From Runella sp. SP2 (GTDB lineage Bacteria; Bacteroidota; Bacteroidia; Cytophagales; Spirosomataceae), in NCBI RefSeq assembly GCF_003711225.1, contig NZ_CP031030.1:5740001-5804000 (forward strand): 64,000 nt of DNA, written 5' to 3'. How positions within the stretch are numbered: position 1 is the first letter of the stretch; each line of letters begins with the position of its first letter. This document shows positions 3,939 through 26,946 of this stretch, one piece after another. The position numbers were made by a program, and so were the translations under genes. The notes beneath the pieces were generated by a model. It had not been told where the DNA came from. It searched no databases and saw only the letters and a list, made by a program, of their open reading frames with translations.

Positions 3939-3976
3939 TGTCCAAAAACGGACAGTTTCCAGTACGTCAACGGACA
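3939..3976. promoter_or_regulatory. Bipartite palindrome, putative NtrC-type enhancer site A
   Basis: TGTCC-AAAAAC-GGACA, then 6 bp, then AGTAC-GTCAAC-GGACA. The same layout recurs at 9874-9910 and 24085-24121. Two inverted repeats about 21-22 bp apart put two dimers on one face of the helix, as for NtrC-family activators. It lies about 54 bp upstream of the -24 element before the PadR gene at 3505-3840. The binding protein (regulator at 24245-25621) is inferred. Confidence 0.65.
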
Positions 3977-9664: not shown

Positions 9665-9676
9665 GAAAAAAAGAGA

Positions 9677-9853
9677 CTGTTTCAAAAGTCTGACAGTACC
9701 AAATTATCTTTTGCGTCTATTTTTCAACCTCACCCCCTAAATCCCCCTCTCCTTTCAGTAGAGGGGGACTTTTTAGGCCCTTCTCCTTTCTGGAGAAGGG
9801 TTGGGATGAGGTGAAAGCGAAGATAATTTGGTATTACTAGACTTTCAAAACAG
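9677..9853. repeat. MITE-like nested palindromic element
   Basis: The outer arms are imperfect inverted repeats of about 34 bp (CTGTTT..AAAGTCT..ACCAAATTATCTT and its complement). Inside are two hairpins, CCCCCTCTCC..AGAGGGGG and CCCTTCTCC..GGAGAAGGG, flanked by CCTCACCCC / GATGAGGTG. No ORF. This accounts for much of the 357-bp gap between 9620 and 9978. It looks like a non-autonomous mobile or REP-type element; mobility is inference. Confidence 0.6.
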
Positions 9854-9873
9854 CCTATTTTTTTAAAACCTCC

Positions 9874-9910
9874 TGTCCGTTTACGGACAATTGCTGTCCT
9901 ACGGTGGACA
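9874..9910. promoter_or_regulatory. Bipartite palindrome, putative NtrC-type enhancer site B
   Basis: TGTCC-GTTTAC-GGACA, 5-bp spacer, TGTCC-TACGGT-GGACA. This is the best conserved of the three copies: all four half-sites are perfect. It is upstream of the PadR-permease operon at 6631-9620, separated from its -24 element by the palindromic element at 9677-9853. It is also 68 bp upstream of the divergent gene at 9978. Confidence 0.65.
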
Positions 9911-18718: not shown

Positions 18719-19282
18719 CTATTTTTTCAAGCCCAGCTCTTGTTCTATTTTTTCAATGATGTTGTTGCGCTCTTTTTCTGATTTATCGGCGGCATTGATT
18801 GTCCGTTCGTAAATCACCTCTTCACCGTCTTTATTAAAACGGTAACGCATAAAAAGCTCGCCCGTTTCCGAGTTATATTTTACCTCTTTTTCAAACCCAT
18901 CTTTCAACGGTTTGGAAGTAGAATGGCCGCTGCGGTGATACCCATCCGAATACGTTGCCCCCGAAAACGGCGTTGGAGGGGTCGGAGGTACAGGAGGAGT
19001 TGGAGGAGTAGCCGGTGTGGGGGGCGTTGGCGGTACAGGAGGTGTAGGGGATTGAATTCCTAACGAATCCAAGACATGATCGCGCAATTCTTTTCGTTCG
19101 GTTTTGCTCAAATGCGCAACGTCGAAGGTGCGGTCATACTGAATCGCCCGCCCGTCTATCGTTCCTTTGACCCGAATTGACATCGTTTGGCCGTTGTCAT
19201 CAATACTGCTACTGATAGAGCGGTGTTGGGCTACGACCATTGAACTCACAAATAATAAACCAACGATTGATAAGGTTTTCAT
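18719..19282 (-). CDS. Secreted protein with two homologous modules joined by a Pro/Thr linker
   Basis: A 187-residue exported protein. Residues 1-18 are a signal peptide (MKTLSIVGLLFVSSMVVA). Residues about 28-77 and 136-187 look like two copies of one module: IQYDRTFDVAHLSKTER resembles VIYERTINAADKSEKER, each followed by a helix ending LDSLGI or EQELGL. Between them is a run of PPTPP-type repeats (about 80-105). It is the last gene of the operon with the fusion protein, ATPase and permease, 12 bp after the permease stop. I do not recognise the family. A periplasmic sensor, scaffold or stress-induced protein is possible from context only. Confidence 0.8.
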   Translation of the reverse strand: MKTLSIVGLLFVSSMVVAQHRSISSSIDDNGQTMSIRVKGTIDGRAIQYDRTFDVAHLSKTERKELRDHVLDSLGIQSPTPPVPPTPPTPATPPTPPVPPTPPTPFSGATYSDGYHRSGHSTSKPLKDGFEKEVKYNSETGELFMRYRFNKDGEEVIYERTINAADKSEKERNNIIEKIEQELGLKK

Positions 19283-19294
19283 GGCAGGAAAGGG

Positions 19295-21652
19295 TTAATC
19301 AGTTTTCAATGATTTTACAGGATTCATCAACGCGGCGCGAATGGCCTGAGAACTCACCGTTAGGAGCGCTATAAAAACCGCAACAACGGCCGCCAAAGCA
19401 AAATACCACCACTCAATTTCGATGCGATAGGCGTATTTTTCGAGCCAACCTTTTAAGAAATACCACGCAATAGGAAAGGCAATCAAAGTAGCTACCAACA
19501 CCAATTTGATAAACTCTGCCGACAGCATACCGACCAAGTTGGTCACGCTGGCTCCGAGCACTTTTCGCACGCCAATTTCTTTGGTACGTTGTTCGGCGGT
19601 GAATGCTGCCAAGCCAAACAGCCCTAAACACGAAATAAAAATAGCCAAGAAGGCAAAGAAATTTGACAGTTGATTGACCACCTCCTCGCTTTTGTATTGT
19701 TTGGCGTACTCTTGGTCGGTAAATGAATATTTAAACGGAAAACTCGGATTAAACTTCTTGAATGTTTTTTCAAGGTTCGCCAACGCATCCTTGGTTTTGC
19801 CTGCTTCTGCCCTCACAATCACTACCCCCCAATTTTCAGTTTTGGGTTGTAGGCGTAGAATCAGGGGTTCGATGGTTGAGTGCAACGAGTTATAGTGAAA
19901 ATCTTTCATCAAGCCCACAATCGTTCCCTTACGTCCCCACATGGTCATTTCTTTACCAACGGGGTCTTTGTAACCCATCTTCTTAGCACTTGCTTCGTTG
20001 ATGATGTAGTTGGTCGTATCCGTGCCGTATTGCTCACCAAAATCACGTCCGCCTACAAGCTTAATGCCCATGGTTTGGATATAATCGTACGAAATGGCAT
20101 TTTGGGCAAACAACAATAACTGAGTTGTGTCTTTGCCTGGCCACGTAACGCCTTGGGTAGAAGAACCAACTTCCAACGGATTGGCCTGCGAAAGCGTGAC
20201 GTGCTTAATCCCTGGCTGCCGTTGAAGTTCTTGTTTAAACGAAGAGAAATTTGTTTGTAAATCCCCTTCTAACGGCATATATACTAAGTTTTCGCGGTCG
20301 TATCCCGAATTTTTGGTTTGAAGATAATCCAGTTGTTCGTGAACAATCACCATGCCCACTATGAGCATAATCGACAACGCAAACTGAAACACTACCAAGC
20401 CTTTACGAAAATAAGTAGCGCTCGGTTTAAACTTCAATGAACCTTTGAGTACCACCACGGGGTTGAGCGAAGACATAAAAAGTGCGGGGTAACTTCCTGC
20501 AACCAAGCCCGTGAACACCGTCAAGCCCAGCAAAGTGGCTAGAATGCGCGGGTCGGTGAAATTGAGCGTCAGTTCTTTTTCGGTAAGAAGATTAAATGTT
20601 GGCAGTAACAAAAAGACCAACACAATCGAAATCAGCAGCGACAATAACGTAATCAGGATAGCCTCTCCCATAAATTGCCCCACCAAAACACCTTTAACGG
20701 CTCCAATCACTTTGCGAACGCCTACTTCTTTGGCACGTTTGACGGAGCGTGCCGTCGCCAAATTCATAAAGTTGATGCAGGCAATGAGCAAAATAACGAT
20801 GGCTACAATTGAGAAAATCCGCACGTATTCGATGCGCCCACCGTCTTGCTTTCCCGAATCCCATTTTGAATACAAATACGATTCTGGAAAAGATTGTAAA
20901 AACAATTCAACGTTGCTGTCTTTATTCTTGGTTTTGATGTAGCCCTTGATTTTGGCGTTTACCTTCTCCAATGAAGCATTTTTGGCCAACAGCACATAAC
21001 AGCGCGGACCATTATTTCCCCACTCTTTCGACCACGCATTGGTTTTTTGCCAGCGGTCGTAGCTCATCAAAAAATCAAACTGTATCGAACTCTTTTGGGG
21101 AATTTCCTTGAGTACTCCCGTTACCATGACCGCGTCTTTGTTGTCCACCTTAATGGTTTTACCGATGGGGTCTTGGTTAGGAAAATACTTTTGGGCTAAC
21201 TTTTGTGAAATCACCACGCCATCAGGACGTTTGAGGGCGGTTTTAGCGTCGCCTTTTTCCAATGGGAAACTAAACAAACGCAAGAAATCGCCTTGGACAT
21301 AACGCCCTTTTTCCTTGTCAAAGGTATTTCCCACGGTAAAGAGCGGCTGTTCTTCCCACAAAAACTGGCTCGCCATTTCTATTTCGGGGATGTCTTTGGT
21401 GATGTTTTCAGCCAAAATCCCAGGAGTAGAAGGATACGTTTCAATTTTTCCAGAATAGTACTGATTTTCCATCACCCGATAAAGGCGAGCGCCGTTGGCG
21501 TGAAAACCATCCATGTTTATTTCATCTTGCACCCAAAGCATAATCATCAGGCTGCAAGCCATACCAAGGGCCAACCCCATGATATTAATAAACGAATAAA
21601 CCTTGTTTTTGAGCAGATTGCGGAACGCAATCGTGAAGTAATTTCTTATCAT
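19295..21652 (-). CDS. FtsX/MacB-type ABC permease, no prefix domain, with its own ATPase
   Basis: A 785-residue two-module permease. The longer frame to 21685 adds MPFLLSFTHTA, but the paralogue-matching start MIRNYFTIAFRNLLKNK is the ATG at 21652. Cytoplasmic motifs are AKEVGVRKVIGA near residue 309 and KEIGVRKVLGAS near 692, with large periplasmic domains and about eight membrane helices in total. It is the only permease here in an operon with both an ATPase (21745-22422) and a fusion protein (22553-23860), so these three probably form a MacAB-like or LolCDE-like complex. The substrate is unknown. Confidence 0.9.
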   Translation of the reverse strand: MIRNYFTIAFRNLLKNKVYSFINIMGLALGMACSLMIMLWVQDEINMDGFHANGARLYRVMENQYYSGKIETYPSTPGILAENITKDIPEIEMASQFLWEEQPLFTVGNTFDKEKGRYVQGDFLRLFSFPLEKGDAKTALKRPDGVVISQKLAQKYFPNQDPIGKTIKVDNKDAVMVTGVLKEIPQKSSIQFDFLMSYDRWQKTNAWSKEWGNNGPRCYVLLAKNASLEKVNAKIKGYIKTKNKDSNVELFLQSFPESYLYSKWDSGKQDGGRIEYVRIFSIVAIVILLIACINFMNLATARSVKRAKEVGVRKVIGAVKGVLVGQFMGEAILITLLSLLISIVLVFLLLPTFNLLTEKELTLNFTDPRILATLLGLTVFTGLVAGSYPALFMSSLNPVVVLKGSLKFKPSATYFRKGLVVFQFALSIMLIVGMVIVHEQLDYLQTKNSGYDRENLVYMPLEGDLQTNFSSFKQELQRQPGIKHVTLSQANPLEVGSSTQGVTWPGKDTTQLLLFAQNAISYDYIQTMGIKLVGGRDFGEQYGTDTTNYIINEASAKKMGYKDPVGKEMTMWGRKGTIVGLMKDFHYNSLHSTIEPLILRLQPKTENWGVVIVRAEAGKTKDALANLEKTFKKFNPSFPFKYSFTDQEYAKQYKSEEVVNQLSNFFAFLAIFISCLGLFGLAAFTAEQRTKEIGVRKVLGASVTNLVGMLSAEFIKLVLVATLIAFPIAWYFLKGWLEKYAYRIEIEWWYFALAAVVAVFIALLTVSSQAIRAALMNPVKSLKTD

Positions 21653-21744
21653 AGCTGTATGGGTAAAAGACAATAGAAAGGGCAAAGAATTGTAGAAACT
21701 CCGTGCCCTTTACGTCAAGAAATATAATGGATAGGAATACGTGA

Positions 21745-22422
21745 TTAGACGCGCATTTTTTCCGTAACTACCTTACCATCAAACAAATTGACAATACGGT
21801 GAGCAAATCCTGCATCGTACGGAGAGTGAGTTACCATGACGATACTCGTCCCTTCGTCGTTGAGTTGGATGAGGAGTTTCATTACCTCTTCGCCGTTGGC
21901 AGAGTCGAGGTTACCCGTAGGCTCATCGGCCAAAATTAGTTTGGGTTTGGCAACAACCGCCCGCGCAATTGCCGTACGCTGTTGTTGCCCCCCTGATAGC
22001 TGTTGAGGGAAGTGATTGCGACGGTGCATGATATTCATGCGGGTCAATACGGTTTCGACCATTTCTTTGCGCTCGTTGGCTGGTACTTTCAAGTATAGCA
22101 ACGGAAGCTCGACGTTTTCATACACCGTAAGTTCGTCGATGAGGTTAAAACTTTGGAACACAAACCCAATGTTTCCTTTGCGGAGTTGGGCCCGTTGGCG
22201 CTCCGACAAAGTAGCCACTTCGGTTCCGTGGAAGTCATAGCTTCCTCCCGAAGGGTTGTCTAGCAAGCCTACTATATTTAGTAACGTAGATTTTCCACAG
22301 CCTGATGGCCCCATGATGGCCACAAACTCGCCATCTTTTACTTCCAAGTCTATTCCGTTCAGGGCTGTAGTTTCAACTTCTTCAGTTGAGAAGATTTTTT
22401 GAAGGTTGGTTATTTTGATCAT
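21745..22422 (-). CDS. ABC transporter ATPase, MacB/LolD type
   Basis: A 225-residue nucleotide-binding subunit from the ATG at 22422 ([11 protein letters not shown]); an upstream start at 22443 would lie in a palindromic repeat. Walker [10 protein letters not shown] (38-46), Q-loop Q90, signature LSGGQ (142-146), Walker B LILADE (162-167) and switch His199 are all intact, so it should be active. It powers FtsX-type permeases, certainly a candidate for the neighbour at 19295-21652. It is the only ABC ATPase in the window, against eight permeases, so sharing among them is a reasonable inference. It lies in an operon between the fusion protein and the permease. Confidence 0.93.
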
Positions 22423-22423
22423 G

Positions 22424-22547
22424 TCAAGCCCCCTAACCCCCAATGGGGGAACGCCAGGGTCAGCGGTTTTGTGTGTTTATGTTTTTTTCGAAATAATTGG
22501 CTGTTTAAGCCCCCATCGGACGGTACGCCAGCGAGGTTTGGGGGCTT
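22424..22547. repeat. Intra-operon palindromic repeats
   Basis: Two C/G-rich hairpins in the 130-bp gap between the fusion protein and the ATPase: CCCCCTAACCCCCAATGGGGG at 22431-22447 and surroundings, and AAGCCCCC..GGGGGCTT at 22507-22547. There is no T-run, so they may be mRNA stabilising or attenuating structures, or a dispersed repeat. Confidence 0.5.
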
Positions 22548-22552
22548 GTATA

Positions 22553-23860
22553 TTACTTCATTTCCAATACTTCCTTATCACCAAAATTAGCATACGAGCT
22601 GGTGATAACTTTCTCGCCTGGTTGCAAGCCTTCGAGTACTTCGTAGAACTCTGGGTTTTTGCGACCAAGGGTAATGTTGCGTTTGCTTGCGCGCTTTCCG
22701 CTGTTGTCTAAGACATACACCCAATTTCCGCCCGTATCAGAGAAGAACCCTCCGACTGGTAGCAACATTGCTTTTTCGGCCTTGCCCAATTCCAAACGAA
22801 TCGGGGTCGATTGCCCACGCTTGATTCCTTCTGGCGCTCCTTTCGGGAAGCTCATATCTACTTCAAAACGACCGTTGCGTACTTCTGGATAAATGCGGGT
22901 GATTTGGAGGGCGTGTTCTTTTCCATTAAAATCAAAATTTCCTAAAAGCCCCACAAAAATCCGTGAAATATAATGCTCGTCAATCGCTACACGCATTTTA
23001 AAACCATCCAAGTCATCAATTTGGCCAATGTTTTGTCCTTGGCTGATGTTTGACCCTACTTCTACGTCAATCGACGACAACATCCCGCTTACGGGTGCTT
23101 TTACCACTAAGTTATCGAGGGTTTGACGCCACAATTCCACGTTTTTCTGAGTACGCACCAGCGTTCCTTCCAGCTGTGAAATCTGCATTTTGGCGTTTTC
23201 TTCTTGATAGTTTTGCGACTCTGTTTCAATATCACGTTGTTTTACCAACAATTCGTAATCACGCTTCGACTTCAAAAAATCAGACTCAGGAATGACCTTG
23301 TCTTTGAACAACTTTTGGTTACGGTCGTAACTATCTTTGGCTTGATCAATTCTAAAATCAAGGTCATTGAGTGTACGACGCATATTAAATCGGTTGACGC
23401 GCAACTGCTGGCGGGTATTTTGAAGGTCGTTGACCAATCGACTTGCTTCGGTTTCTGATTGCAAGAAGTTAAGCTTCAAGTTTTGGTTTTCAAGGCGCAA
23501 AAGCACTTGGCCTTGGCTTACCATACTCCCCCCTTCTACTATTTTTTCTTTCACGTATCCGCCCACAATCGCGTCAAGGCGAATCGTTTTGAGGGGTTGA
23601 ACTACGCCCGTTACCACAATAAATTCATCAAACGACCCCGTTGAAACGCTTGATACCGTCAATTTATCGGCTTCTACGTTGAGTTTTGAACGTTTATCTG
23701 AAAAGAATACTTGGTATCCAATGAAAGCGATGATGGCGCCGCCGCCTACCACCAAAATGATACGCTGTGTATTCCAAAATTTCTTTTTCCGAACGCGATC
23801 CATTGATCCTTGTGTACTGTTGTTTGAAGTTTGGTTGCTAAGTGGATGTTTGACTTCCAT
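22553..23860 (-). CDS. HlyD/MacA-like periplasmic adaptor (membrane fusion protein)
   Basis: A 435-residue adaptor. N-terminal cytoplasmic tail (about 1-27, rich in N, T, K, R), one membrane anchor (about 32-50, IILVVGGGAIIAFIGYQVFF), first half of a lipoyl domain (IVGGYVKEKIVEGGSMVSQGQVLLRL), a long coiled-coil hairpin (about 120-235), the second lipoyl half (VKAPVSGMLSSIDVEVGSNI), then beta-barrel and membrane-proximal domains. It would bridge an inner-membrane ABC permease to an outer-membrane TolC-like channel. First gene of the operon with the ATPase, permease and secreted protein. The promoter region carries a good sigma-54 site (24015-24030) and the palindrome at 24085-24121. Confidence 0.92.
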   Translation of the reverse strand: MEVKHPLSNQTSNNSTQGSMDRVRKKKFWNTQRIILVVGGGAIIAFIGYQVFFSDKRSKLNVEADKLTVSSVSTGSFDEFIVVTGVVQPLKTIRLDAIVGGYVKEKIVEGGSMVSQGQVLLRLENQNLKLNFLQSETEASRLVNDLQNTRQQLRVNRFNMRRTLNDLDFRIDQAKDSYDRNQKLFKDKVIPESDFLKSKRDYELLVKQRDIETESQNYQEENAKMQISQLEGTLVRTQKNVELWRQTLDNLVVKAPVSGMLSSIDVEVGSNISQGQNIGQIDDLDGFKMRVAIDEHYISRIFVGLLGNFDFNGKEHALQITRIYPEVRNGRFEVDMSFPKGAPEGIKRGQSTPIRLELGKAEKAMLLPVGGFFSDTGGNWVYVLDNSGKRASKRNITLGRKNPEFYEVLEGLQPGEKVITSSYANFGDKEVLEMK

Positions 23861-24014: not shown

Positions 24015-24030
24015 TCCAATACCCGTGCCA
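24015..24030 (-). promoter_or_regulatory. Sigma-54 promoter (C) of the fusion-protein operon
   Basis: Minus-strand TGGCACGGGTATTGGA: perfect -24 TGGCACG, correct spacing and TTGG instead of TTGC at -12. It is 56 bp from the enhancer-like palindrome at 24085-24121. The leader to the start at 23860 would be roughly 140-145 nt. Confidence 0.7.
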
Positions 24031-24084
24031 GAACCATAAGTGATTGAATTTTAGACAATTATTCAAAAATACCATTTCTAATTT

Positions 24085-24121
24085 TGTCCGTTTTCGGACA
24101 AGCATTGTACGGCGGTGGACA
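24085..24121. promoter_or_regulatory. Bipartite palindrome, putative NtrC-type enhancer site C
   Basis: TGTCC-GTTTTC-GGACA, 5-bp spacer, TGTAC-GGCGGT-GGACA, the same layout as 3939-3976 and 9874-9910. It sits in the 384-bp divergent gap and is almost exactly centred: 56 bp to the -24 GG of the leftward promoter (24028-24029) and 55 bp to that of the rightward one (24176-24177). It is likely bound by the regulator encoded next to it (24245-25621), which would then control itself and the efflux operon. Confidence 0.75.
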
Positions 24122-24174
24122 GGATTAAAAAGTACGTATTTTCTTACTGATTGATTATGAGGGATTTTGTAACT

Positions 24175-24190
24175 TGGCACTCTTATTGGG
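24175..24190 (+). promoter_or_regulatory. Sigma-54 promoter (D) of the regulator-kinase operon
   Basis: TGGCACTCTTATTGGG with correct -24/-12 spacing. It shares the TTGG -12 variant with promoter C. It lies 55-70 bp before the ATG at 24245, giving a leader of about 44 nt, and 55 bp from the palindrome at 24085-24121. Confidence 0.65.
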
Positions 24191-24244: not shown

Positions 24245-25621
24245 ATGCTTTCAGCCAAAATCCTCATTGTTGACGACGACGTAGATGTGCTTAGTGCTGC
24301 TAAACTGATGCTCAAACGCCATTTTAGTCAAATAGATATTGAAAAAAATCCGCAACGAATTCCATTTTTGGTCACCAACGGCGACTATGACGCGATTTTG
24401 CTGGACATGAACTTCACCCGCGACGTTATCAGTGGTAAAGAAGGATTTGATTGGCTCGACCGTATTTTAGACATTGACCCGCTGGCCGTAGTAGTTCTTT
24501 TTACGGCTTTCGGAAACGTAGAAATGGCCGTTCGTGCGATGAAATCAGGGGCGATGGATTTTGTTTTGAAGCCTTGGGAAAACGACAAACTGCTCGCTAC
24601 CCTGCAAGCAGCCGTCCAAAAACGGGCAGAAAATAAAGCACATGCCAATGTGCAACCTACCTCCGCTACGCCCACCGCCCCGCCTAAAACCGTTGCCAAA
24701 CCGACGCAATCCACTTTTTTGGCAACCAGCCCAATCATGCAGCAGCTGTATGCTACCGTTGAGCGCGTAGCTTCTACCGATGCAACAGTATTGATTTTGG
24801 GAGAAAACGGGACGGGAAAAAGTGATTTAGCCCAACTTCTTCACCAAAAATCCAACCGTACCGAAAAGCCATTCGTCACCGTCGATTTGGGAGCTATTCC
24901 CGAAAGTCTGTTTGAAAGTGAGCTTTTCGGAAGTGTCAAAGGAGCGTTTACTGATGCAAAAGAAGACCGCGCAGGACGGTTTGAAGAAGCCCACGGCGGA
25001 ACGTTGTTTTTGGACGAAATCGGGAATTTATCACTTCCCATGCAAGCCAAATTACTTTCGGTCTTACAAAGCCGCCTCGTGACGCGCGTCGGCTCCAACA
25101 AGCCCAAACAAATCGACGTCCGCGTGATTTGTGCCACCAATCAGCCGCTCGCCCAAATGGTAGCTGAGCGTACTTTTCGCCAAGATTTACTATACCGTAT
25201 CAATACCATTGAGCTTCGCCTTCCCCCACTTCGCGAGCGACCAGAAGACATTGTTCCGTTGGCGGAGTTGTTCTTAAAACAATACCGTCATCAGTACAAA
25301 CGTGTGGTGACGGCGTTCAGTGCGGCCCTTGTCAAACAACTTCAACGCTACAATTGGCCTGGAAATGTGCGAGAATTGCGAAGTGCGGTAGAGCGGGCCA
25401 TTATTTTGACCCAAAACTCTACCCTCCAGCCCGAAGATTTTTTCCAAAACGCCTTTACCGAAGCTTCTCAGTTCAATGAAACGTTTCAGTTGGAAGAAAT
25501 GGAAAAACAACTGATTGTGAAGGCCATGAAGAAATACAACGGTAATATCACAGAAGTAGCGCGCGAATTGGGTCTTTCACGGCAAGCGTTGTATCGGCGC
25601 ATGGAAAAATACGGACTATGA
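24245..25621 (+). CDS. NtrC-family sigma-54-dependent response regulator
   Basis: A 458-residue activator. Receiver domain (about 4-122) with acidic pocket D10-D12, phosphoacceptor D54, T87 and K109. Ala/Pro/Thr-rich linker about 130-158. AAA+ sigma-54 interaction domain (about 160-385) with Walker A GENGTGKS (186-193) and Walker B GGTLFLDEIG (251-260). The sigma-54-contact loop is GAFTDA (233-238), not the usual GAFTGA. C-terminal Fis-type helix-turn-helix (VARELGLSRQALYRRMEKY). It overlaps the kinase gene by 4 bp. The three TGTCC/GGACA palindromes are its likely targets, implying control of the permease array and autoregulation (inference). Confidence 0.95.
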   Translation: MLSAKILIVDDDVDVLSAAKLMLKRHFSQIDIEKNPQRIPFLVTNGDYDAILLDMNFTRDVISGKEGFDWLDRILDIDPLAVVVLFTAFGNVEMAVRAMKSGAMDFVLKPWENDKLLATLQAAVQKRAENKAHANVQPTSATPTAPPKTVAKPTQSTFLATSPIMQQLYATVERVASTDATVLILGENGTGKSDLAQLLHQKSNRTEKPFVTVDLGAIPESLFESELFGSVKGAFTDAKEDRAGRFEEAHGGTLFLDEIGNLSLPMQAKLLSVLQSRLVTRVGSNKPKQIDVRVICATNQPLAQMVAERTFRQDLLYRINTIELRLPPLRERPEDIVPLAELFLKQYRHQYKRVVTAFSAALVKQLQRYNWPGNVRELRSAVERAIILTQNSTLQPEDFFQNAFTEASQFNETFQLEEMEKQLIVKAMKKYNGNITEVARELGLSRQALYRRMEKYGL

Positions 25622-26946
25622 GACATTTCTCTATTGGTATTCTTTGGCGCATCGTCCTACTGGTATTTTTTGTTGGAATGGCGGTTTATTTCGGCAACAA
25701 AGAACAGTGGACGGCCGTATCGCTGCTTGGGATATTGGGGGCAGCCGCCATGTTTAATTTGTACCACTATGTCACGAACATCAACCGAAAACTGTCTCGT
25801 TTTTTTGAATCAGTTCGGTACTCTGATTTTGCGGTAAAATTCCGTTCAGACGACAAAATGGGGGATAGTTTTCGCGAAATTAATCAGCAGTTCAACGAAG
25901 TACTCGAAGCCTTTCGCATCGCTCGTGCCGAAAAGGAAGCCAATTTACAGTACCTCAACACCATCGTTCAGCAAATTAATACGGGTTTGATAAGTTTTGG
26001 CAGCGATGGTCGCGTCGAACTGGTCAACAGCGCAGCCCTAAAGATGCTGAGTATTTATCGCCTCCGCCAACTTGAAGATTTACAAGAACCTCATCCTCAA
26101 CTATTTTCGCTTATATCAAACATTAAAACGGGAGTAAAACAACTCTACGAAACCCCCGACGACGAGTCGCTTTCGGTACAAGCAACCCAAATTCAACTAC
26201 GGGGCAAAGTCCTTAGGATTGTGGTTCTTCAAAACATTCAGTCAGAACTCCAACAGAAAGAAGTGGAGGCTTGGCAAAACCTGACGCGCGTGCTTCGACA
26301 CGAAATAATGAATTCGTTGGCGCCGATTTTGTCGTTGGTTGGAACCATGAAAGAGATTGTCCAATTGGACATTCAACCCGAAATCCCTGAAAACGAAGGA
26401 CTTCAAGATTTGACCGAAGCACTCCAAACCATTGAAAAGCGCAGTACAGGGATTATTCAGTTTGTGAATGCTTACCGCGACTTCACGGCGCTGCCAAAAC
26501 CCACTTTTGCCGAAATTTCGGTCAAGGAGCTTCTTCAGCGGGTGGTTCAGCTGTTCCAAAAAAGCTTACAAGAATCGTCGGTACAGTTAAACGTGAGCGT
26601 CGTTCCCGATACCCTTCTTCTTAATGCCGATGCTGATCAGATTGAGCAAGTTATTATCAACCTCATTAAAAACGCCATCGAAGCTTTGCAGGGCAACCCT
26701 GAACCTTTGATTACTGTCAAAGCCCATTCGGACATCAACCAACGAACCTACATTGAAGTCGCTGATAATGGTTCGGGCATCGAGCCTGAGGCATTGGAGC
26801 GTATTTTCATTCCGTTTTATACCACAAAAAAAACAGGCTCAGGGATTGGTCTGAGCCTATCAAGGCAAATTTTACAGCAACATGGCGGCTCACTTACGGC
26901 TACCTCAGAAGTTGGCGAAGGCACTTCGTTTGTGATGGCGCTGTAA
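25618..26946 (+). CDS. Membrane histidine kinase (NtrB-like)
   Basis: A 442-residue sensor kinase. Two close membrane helices (about 8-25 and 32-50) leave almost no periplasmic loop, so it probably senses a membrane or cytoplasmic signal. Then a HAMP-like linker (about 50-105), a PAS-like region (about 108-210), and a dimerisation domain with phospho-acceptor H228 in VLRHEIMNSLAPI. The ATPase domain has N-box NLIKNAIEAL, G1 DNGSGI and G2 GSGIGLSLS. The ATG overlaps the stop of the response regulator, so the two form a cognate pair. Its gene converges on the DUF1501 gene with a 3-bp gap. Confidence 0.93.
   Translation: MRHFSIGILWRIVLLVFFVGMAVYFGNKEQWTAVSLLGILGAAAMFNLYHYVTNINRKLSRFFESVRYSDFAVKFRSDDKMGDSFREINQQFNEVLEAFRIARAEKEANLQYLNTIVQQINTGLISFGSDGRVELVNSAALKMLSIYRLRQLEDLQEPHPQLFSLISNIKTGVKQLYETPDDESLSVQATQIQLRGKVLRIVVLQNIQSELQQKEVEAWQNLTRVLRHEIMNSLAPILSLVGTMKEIVQLDIQPEIPENEGLQDLTEALQTIEKRSTGIIQFVNAYRDFTALPKPTFAEISVKELLQRVVQLFQKSLQESSVQLNVSVVPDTLLLNADADQIEQVIINLIKNAIEALQGNPEPLITVKAHSDINQRTYIEVADNGSGIEPEALERIFIPFYTTKKTGSGIGLSLSRQILQQHGGSLTATSEVGEGTSFVMAL

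Follow-up and report, generated by a model that had tools for sequence, protein, structure and literature searches.

Enhancer-binding proteins with a Fis-type helix-turn-helix (HTH) sit as dimers on inverted repeats and drive sigma54 polymerase by looping. In the closest described systems, NtrBC, ZraSR and AtoSC, a regulator with receiver, AAA+ and Fis HTH domains is encoded beside its kinase and works with paired palindromes upstream of -24/-12 promoters, and the locus described here shares each of these traits. Unlike those systems, its regulator stays below the NCBIfam cut-offs of the best 25 of 70 matching models; it scores 329 bits against 558.6 for NtrC, 345 against 714 for AtoC and 329 against 760 for ZraR, and does not reach equivalog level for these. 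A further departure from NtrC-type systems is that the spacing hardly varies among dozens of paralogous promoters.

By analogy, and going by partial accounts of those systems, the pairing of a small-loop membrane kinase with neighbouring permease genes of the FtsX type can also be likened to the Bce-type modules of Firmicutes. A Bce-type module is defined by an OmpR-type regulator and a kinase signalling through a permease, whereas here the regulator is an NtrC-type sigma54 activator, an HlyD adaptor is present and the permeases are dispersed, which places the locus outside that definition. The permeases themselves resemble the ADOP family (TIGR03434), over their whole length in the three that were tested, and like ADOP they have PadR neighbours and mostly lack an adjacent ATPase gene; unlike ADOP, they score about 320-339 bits (338.9, 320.2 and 329.5) against a cut-off of 622.3. 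There is likewise resemblance to DarB (permeases), DarC (adaptor) and DarD (ATPase), in every case under the curated NCBIfam cut-off.

Sigma54 control of FtsX-like ABC permeases (COG0577) has been predicted in Bacteroidia, in what the available part of that study calls the first such evidence (PMC12316311). That work, like ours, links sigma54 promoters computationally to the FtsX-like permease family; unlike ours, its available part names no regulator, enhancer site or spacing for these permeases, and the strings 'palindrom' and 'upstream activat' do not occur in the main text seen. The main text of PMC3162934 holds no match for bacteroid, ABC transport, FtsX, efflux, permease or flavobacter. 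A search of an open-access library found no description of the regulon or of the site. The system is of a known kind, with an apparently undescribed regulon and unusually constrained spacing.

The regulator-HlyD intergenic site and its flanking genes

Our window is a stretch of 64,000 nucleotides from Runella sp. SP2 (NZ_CP031030.1, positions 5,740,001 to 5,804,000). Between a regulator gene and an HlyD gene it holds two strandless palindromes, TGTCCGTTTTCGGACA (24085-24100) and TGTACGGCGGTGGACA (24106-24121), which lie 21 bp, or about two helical turns, apart and are flanked by two divergent sigma54-type boxes of the form TGGCAC-N5-TTGG. The leftward box, TGGCACGGGTATTGG (24016-24030, minus strand), is the putative promoter of the HlyD-ABC-MacB operon, with TGTCCGTTTTCGGACA as its candidate proximal enhancer; the rightward box, TGGCACTCTTATTGG (24175-24189, plus strand), is that of the regulator-kinase operon, with TGTACGGCGGTGGACA in the corresponding role. 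Measured from the palindrome to the T of TGG in the box, the distances to each box's own palindrome are 54 bp on the left and 53 bp on the right, so that the 56 and 55 bp given in an earlier, sequence-only reading of this DNA were each 2 bp too large. The palindrome pair and divergent boxes which that reading described are real, being read directly from the sequence and re-measured here. The near-perfect symmetry that it noted holds for the half-sites of the 37-bp pair (24085-24121) and fails letter for letter, as the pair matches its own reverse complement at 22 of 37 positions. Both boxes have -24 and -12 elements at the exact spacing of a sigma54 promoter, as does the logo of sigma54-type boxes from relatives' modules (see below), which TGGCACGGGTATTGG fits.

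The flanking genes bear that reading out: a sigma54 activator and a kinase follow on the right, and the left side holds an HlyD adaptor with an ABC ATPase and a MacB/FtsX permease. The NtrC-type response regulator (24245-25621, plus strand) has receiver, sigma54-interaction AAA+ and Fis-type HTH domains (PF00072, PF00158 and PF02954, all above the Pfam cut-off), the domain set of a group I bacterial enhancer-binding protein, and is 100% identical to the regulator of R. defluvii DSM 17976. Its sigma54-contact loop reads GAFTDA, and over 21 regulator orthologues the loop is GAFTDA in 18, GAYTDA in two and GSFTDA in one. As far as the available part of a published list goes, GAFTDA and GAYTDA are among the loop variants expected to keep activity and GSFTDA is absent from it (PMC4641369); the regulator's loop is in this sense a tolerated variant of GAFTGA. 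Overlapping the regulator gene by 4 bp is a sensor histidine kinase gene (25618-26946, plus strand; Pfam), whose product begins with hydrophobic segments separated by a very short loop; the first segment passes a hydropathy threshold of 1.6, and the second, weaker and a few residues on, was read from the sequence. Two hydrophobic segments so close together suggest that the kinase may sense within the membrane.

On the minus strand, and identified by both Pfam and NCBIfam, are the HlyD/RND-type periplasmic adaptor (22553-23860), the MacB/DarD-like ABC ATPase (21745-22443) and an ADOP-like, duplicated MacB/FtsX permease (19295-21685). Seven MacB-type duplicated permeases are encoded within 873-21685, with one ABC ATPase gene found beside them, and permease prefix domain 2 is present in one of the three window permeases scored against NCBIfam. 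The permeases are adjoined by a small protein without Pfam match (18719-19282), a relative of which (L145; 27% identity, 185 residues) lies directly after a module in another genus.

Recurrence of the module before transport genes

What the sequence-only reading overlooked is that the window site is one of many like it. The exact palindrome TGTCC-N6-GGACA occurs 11 times in the 7.6 Mb of this genome, against two occurrences of the reversed pattern; with one mismatch allowed, the counts are 109 against 102 in the control, an excess so nearly nil that a lone palindrome is informative only if exact or accompanied by a box. The box alone (TGGCAC-N5-TTGS) is mildly enriched (50 against 32), whereas the composite of a palindrome with TGGYA at 25-55 bp occurs eight times against once, so the signal is carried by the arrangement and not by the box. 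The 11 exact palindromes mark 10 places, seven of which fall within 120 kb rich in MacB-type permeases. Eight places are at transport operons or the regulator/HlyD site: two MacB-type permeases, five PadR-permease operons (two of them in the window, see below) and one regulator/HlyD pair. A box lies 52-54 bp from the palindrome at seven of the 10, with a weak -12 element at some (TTTTA at two); the distance is odd at two places (66 bp and about 200 bp), and the palindrome at 4742082 is inside an ORF without Pfam match. Far from the array, at 1068937, a perfect palindrome with a box at 54 bp stands before a beta-lactamase-family protein (PF00144; L013:1389-2953).

Elsewhere in the window, a palindrome at 3939-3954 (no strand) lies 52 bp from TGGCAAGGTATTTTA, a box with a weak -12, and fronts the PadR-permease operon 3840-873. 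Two perfect palindromes 21 bp apart (9874-9910, no strand) are found upstream of the PadR-permease operon 9620-6631, with the box TGGCACGGATTTGTA about 200 bp away and a repeat element within the spacer. This element, between the candidate enhancer pair and the box (9666-9864, about 200 bp), has 45-nt inverted arms that are 82% complementary, and in L209 its inner part runs in the orientation opposite to that in this genome and L208. At many permease operons and genes of the array in this genome no recognisable module was found; some of these module-less genes probably sit inside operons.

To describe the module in relatives we used 96 sites, drawn from 10 genera and 21 genomes outside Runella (98 matches are listed; G025:C370 was left out and the two boxes of one G088 site were merged as one locus), in which three loci with two boxes each bring the palindrome-box pairs to 99. 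Downstream genes were called by tblastn with the window proteins, L161 and L176 being PadR. The distance from palindrome to box is 51-55 bp at 83 sites (exactly 53 at 38 of them), 44 bp at three and another value at 10. Downstream of the 83 are a permease in 55 cases, HlyD in 11, PadR in 10, the ABC ATPase in five and none of these in two; one of these four kinds of gene is thus faced by 81 of 83 sites, by all three 44-bp sites (permeases throughout) and by none of the 10 odd-gap sites, which have none of them downstream in nine cases and the regulator itself in one. As a control the odd-gap group is impure, since at least four of the 10 have a PadR gene or module on their other side and so resemble genuine sites taken in the wrong direction. 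A second site is best-scoring at 20-22 bp further upstream in 65 of the 83. Together with a 65-bp class at the regulator locus (see below), the distances fall into groups of 44, 53-55 and 65 bp, separated by about one helical turn; the family-wide module scan ended at a gap of 55 bp and so counts too few of the 65-bp class.

At 70% spacer identity, 81 modules reduce to 66 non-redundant ones, which were used for the logo and for shuffles. The logo reads TGGCAY-N5-TTG, in which a -12 element appears at the distance expected for sigma54 (T 93%, T 81%, G 84%) although the search pattern did not include it. The C of TTGC is not conserved in the 66 modules, which makes the window's TTGG ordinary here. 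The spacers hold further recurrent elements. The IHF consensus of E. coli is given as WATCARNNNNTTR in the part of the source available (PMC7962754), and it occurs exactly in 11 of the 66 spacers (shuffles: mean 0.2, maximum 2), overlapping the palindrome YTGANNATCAR. With at most one mismatch it occurs in 23 (mean 4.5, maximum 11), always starting 19 or 20 bp before the box, and YTGANNATCAR within one mismatch is present in 29 (mean 1.2, maximum 4). The IHF-like element was first noticed in Runella, and these counts come from other genera. A G+C-rich hairpin fills 11 of the 66 spacers (shuffles: mean 1.6), seven of them terminator-like, and none of these is among the 23 IHF-like spacers. Hairpin spacers include L151, L168, L173, L175, L179, L180 and L181; another, L016:4965-5066 in this genome, has only a divergent ORF upstream and so is not simply that gene's terminator.

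Conservation at the regulator locus and co-occurrence with the regulator

All eight Runella loci examined keep the tandem sites, TGTCCGTTTTCGGACA included, and the rightward box, which supports the proposal that the pair may be an enhancer serving two divergent sigma54 promoters. A script finds the leftward box in six of the eight; L054 and L070 have CGG in place of TGG. Outside Runella, 17 of 20 regulator-upstream regions have a palindrome (at most two mismatches) by a leftward box and three have none, and the distance in the 17 is 53-55 bp in nine and exactly 65 bp, one helical turn more, in eight. L187-L192, L196 and L197 have the HlyD-side box exactly 65 bp from the palindrome and tandem sites 20 bp apart. 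A rightward box at such a distance was not recognised in the regulator-upstream regions examined outside Runella; the symmetric arrangement, whose recurrence in related genomes had been proposed as a check, was recovered within Runella and not beyond it, and sigma54 autoregulation is predicted in Runella only.

Three Emticicia loci have a perfect palindrome and a weaker partner upstream of the regulator, and CAN_BIN26, a Ferruginibacter MAG and Fibrisoma keep the HlyD-side site 52-54 bp from its box. The regulator adjoins the HlyD-ABC genes in Emticicia, CAN_BIN26 and the Ferruginibacter MAG and is 2 kb from them in Fibrisoma; a search beside the Emticicia regulator found no relative of the kinase. 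The regulator gene has neither the site nor an HlyD neighbour in G020, Fibrella, Fibrivirga and two MAG loci. Because G020 nonetheless has 10 modules in its genome, control there would be in trans.

The composite occurs in 12 of 13 Runella genomes, and the exception (G007) is the sole one without a regulator orthologue; it has three other enhancer-binding protein matches and no modules. Among 150 genomes of the family, 82 are regulator-positive (E 1e-175 or better, plus G008, assigned by hand, in which the gene is split over contig ends), and 67 of these have at least two modules, with a mean of 4.57 against 0.89 in the control. Where no regulator is found at 1e-130 (36 genomes), one genome has at least two modules (mean 0.22 against 0.19), and the 32 genomes whose regulator match falls between 1e-131 and 1e-174 show no excess (mean 0.62 against 0.62); all these counts ignore kinship, and the genomes are not phylogenetically independent. 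The module excess over control is confined to family genomes with a close regulator orthologue, G096 being the exception: there, sites with TGGCC-type boxes about 53 bp away stand at PadR-permease operons (L202, L203), and the regulator was not found at 1e-130. Eight of the 82 regulator-positive genomes, G144 among them, are without the strict module. Of the other seven, five have a variant of the pair in the stretch from regulator to HlyD, their 65-bp regions and CGTCC half-sites accounting for the missed match, and G073 and G019 have no variant pair there.

The module is absent from four genomes of another family in the same order that have regulator matches of 1e-168 to 1e-173. In a scan of the phylum the strict module was found in 24 of 395 genomes, seven to 10 each in four from the window's family and one or two each in the other 20; as the control pattern is matched in 47 genomes from outside the family, the module shows no excess there. 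The regulator is present at 1e-165 in eight of the 395. Some single module matches outside the family look real.

A candidate transport regulon and competing explanations

With sites, boxes, preferred spacings, target genes, their conservation and their co-occurrence with the regulator all read from the DNA, the site looks like the master switch of a transport regulon, because a like site stands at set distances before many related transport genes in this bacterium and its relatives. We consider it highly probable that 24085-24121 is an enhancer through which the linked two-component activator controls its own operon, the HlyD-ABC-MacB operon and dispersed orphan permeases. The pair would be a two-dimer upstream activating sequence for the regulator encoded at 24245, and we infer activation, not repression. 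Signalling by the neighbouring membrane kinase (25618) would lead to phosphorylated regulator on both palindromes, whose AAA+ ring would activate the sigma54 RNA polymerase held at a box 53-54 bp away on either side. The regulator would in this way raise its own operon and the HlyD-ABC-MacB operon, and like modules elsewhere would do the same for the dispersed orphan permeases of MacB/FtsX (ADOP-like) type. Many permeases would then be switched on together with one ATPase/adaptor operon, perhaps under envelope stress.

That the palindrome is instead an operator of the PadR proteins heading permease operons, which would repress them and have the regulator gene as merely one target, is very unlikely in our estimation. 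PadR immediately follows the palindrome at five of the 10 places in this genome and follows 10 of the 81 modules taken from relatives, the module mean among genomes with the regulator at 1e-165 is 4.97 with PadR and 1.95 without, and G096 has PadR and sites with no regulator at 1e-130. However, at 71 of the 81 modules the first gene found is for a permease, HlyD or ABC protein and not for PadR, and where the regulator is present (1e-165) but PadR is not (1e-20), 11 of 21 genomes still have at least two modules, with a mean of 1.95 against 0.52 in the control. Palindromes more than 40 bp from the box are also a better fit to an activator than to a repressor, and overall PadR explains the module distribution less well than the regulator does.

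Binding by another enhancer-binding protein seems very improbable too: six near full-length sigma54-activator domains are encoded in this genome, but in several genera the site precedes the linked regulator gene, its occurrence follows that of the regulator, and G007 has other such proteins and no modules. Chance palindromes beside chance TGGCAC boxes, as might be imagined from boxes alone and one-mismatch palindromes near control level, can practically be dismissed, being contradicted by the preferred spacing, the conserved tandem sites, the -12 element outside the search pattern and the identity of the targets across genera.

Within the preferred reading of a linked activator and its enhancer, a bolder version can be offered tentatively, and we rate it as rather doubtful: a family-wide sigma54 regulon of discrete enhancer geometry, built on two dimers and a small-loop kinase, that would be the sigma54 counterpart of Bce-type sensing modules. 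The dimers would sit about two turns apart and 53 bp from the -24 element, or one turn less or more (44 or 65 bp), and the spacer would often carry an IHF-like bend site at a constant position. One ATPase/adaptor pair would be co-expressed with many orphan permeases that could stand in for one another, and the small-loop kinase might sense the membrane or the transporters themselves.

Co-regulation with the ATPase/adaptor operon suggests that the orphan permeases share one ATPase. With distances that group by helical turn, these dozens of paralogous promoters lend themselves to the study of phasing in close-range sigma54 enhancers. For a large group of transport genes in these Bacteroidota that have no assigned function, the locus offers one candidate for a master regulator, together with a DNA site and a promoter architecture open to testing.
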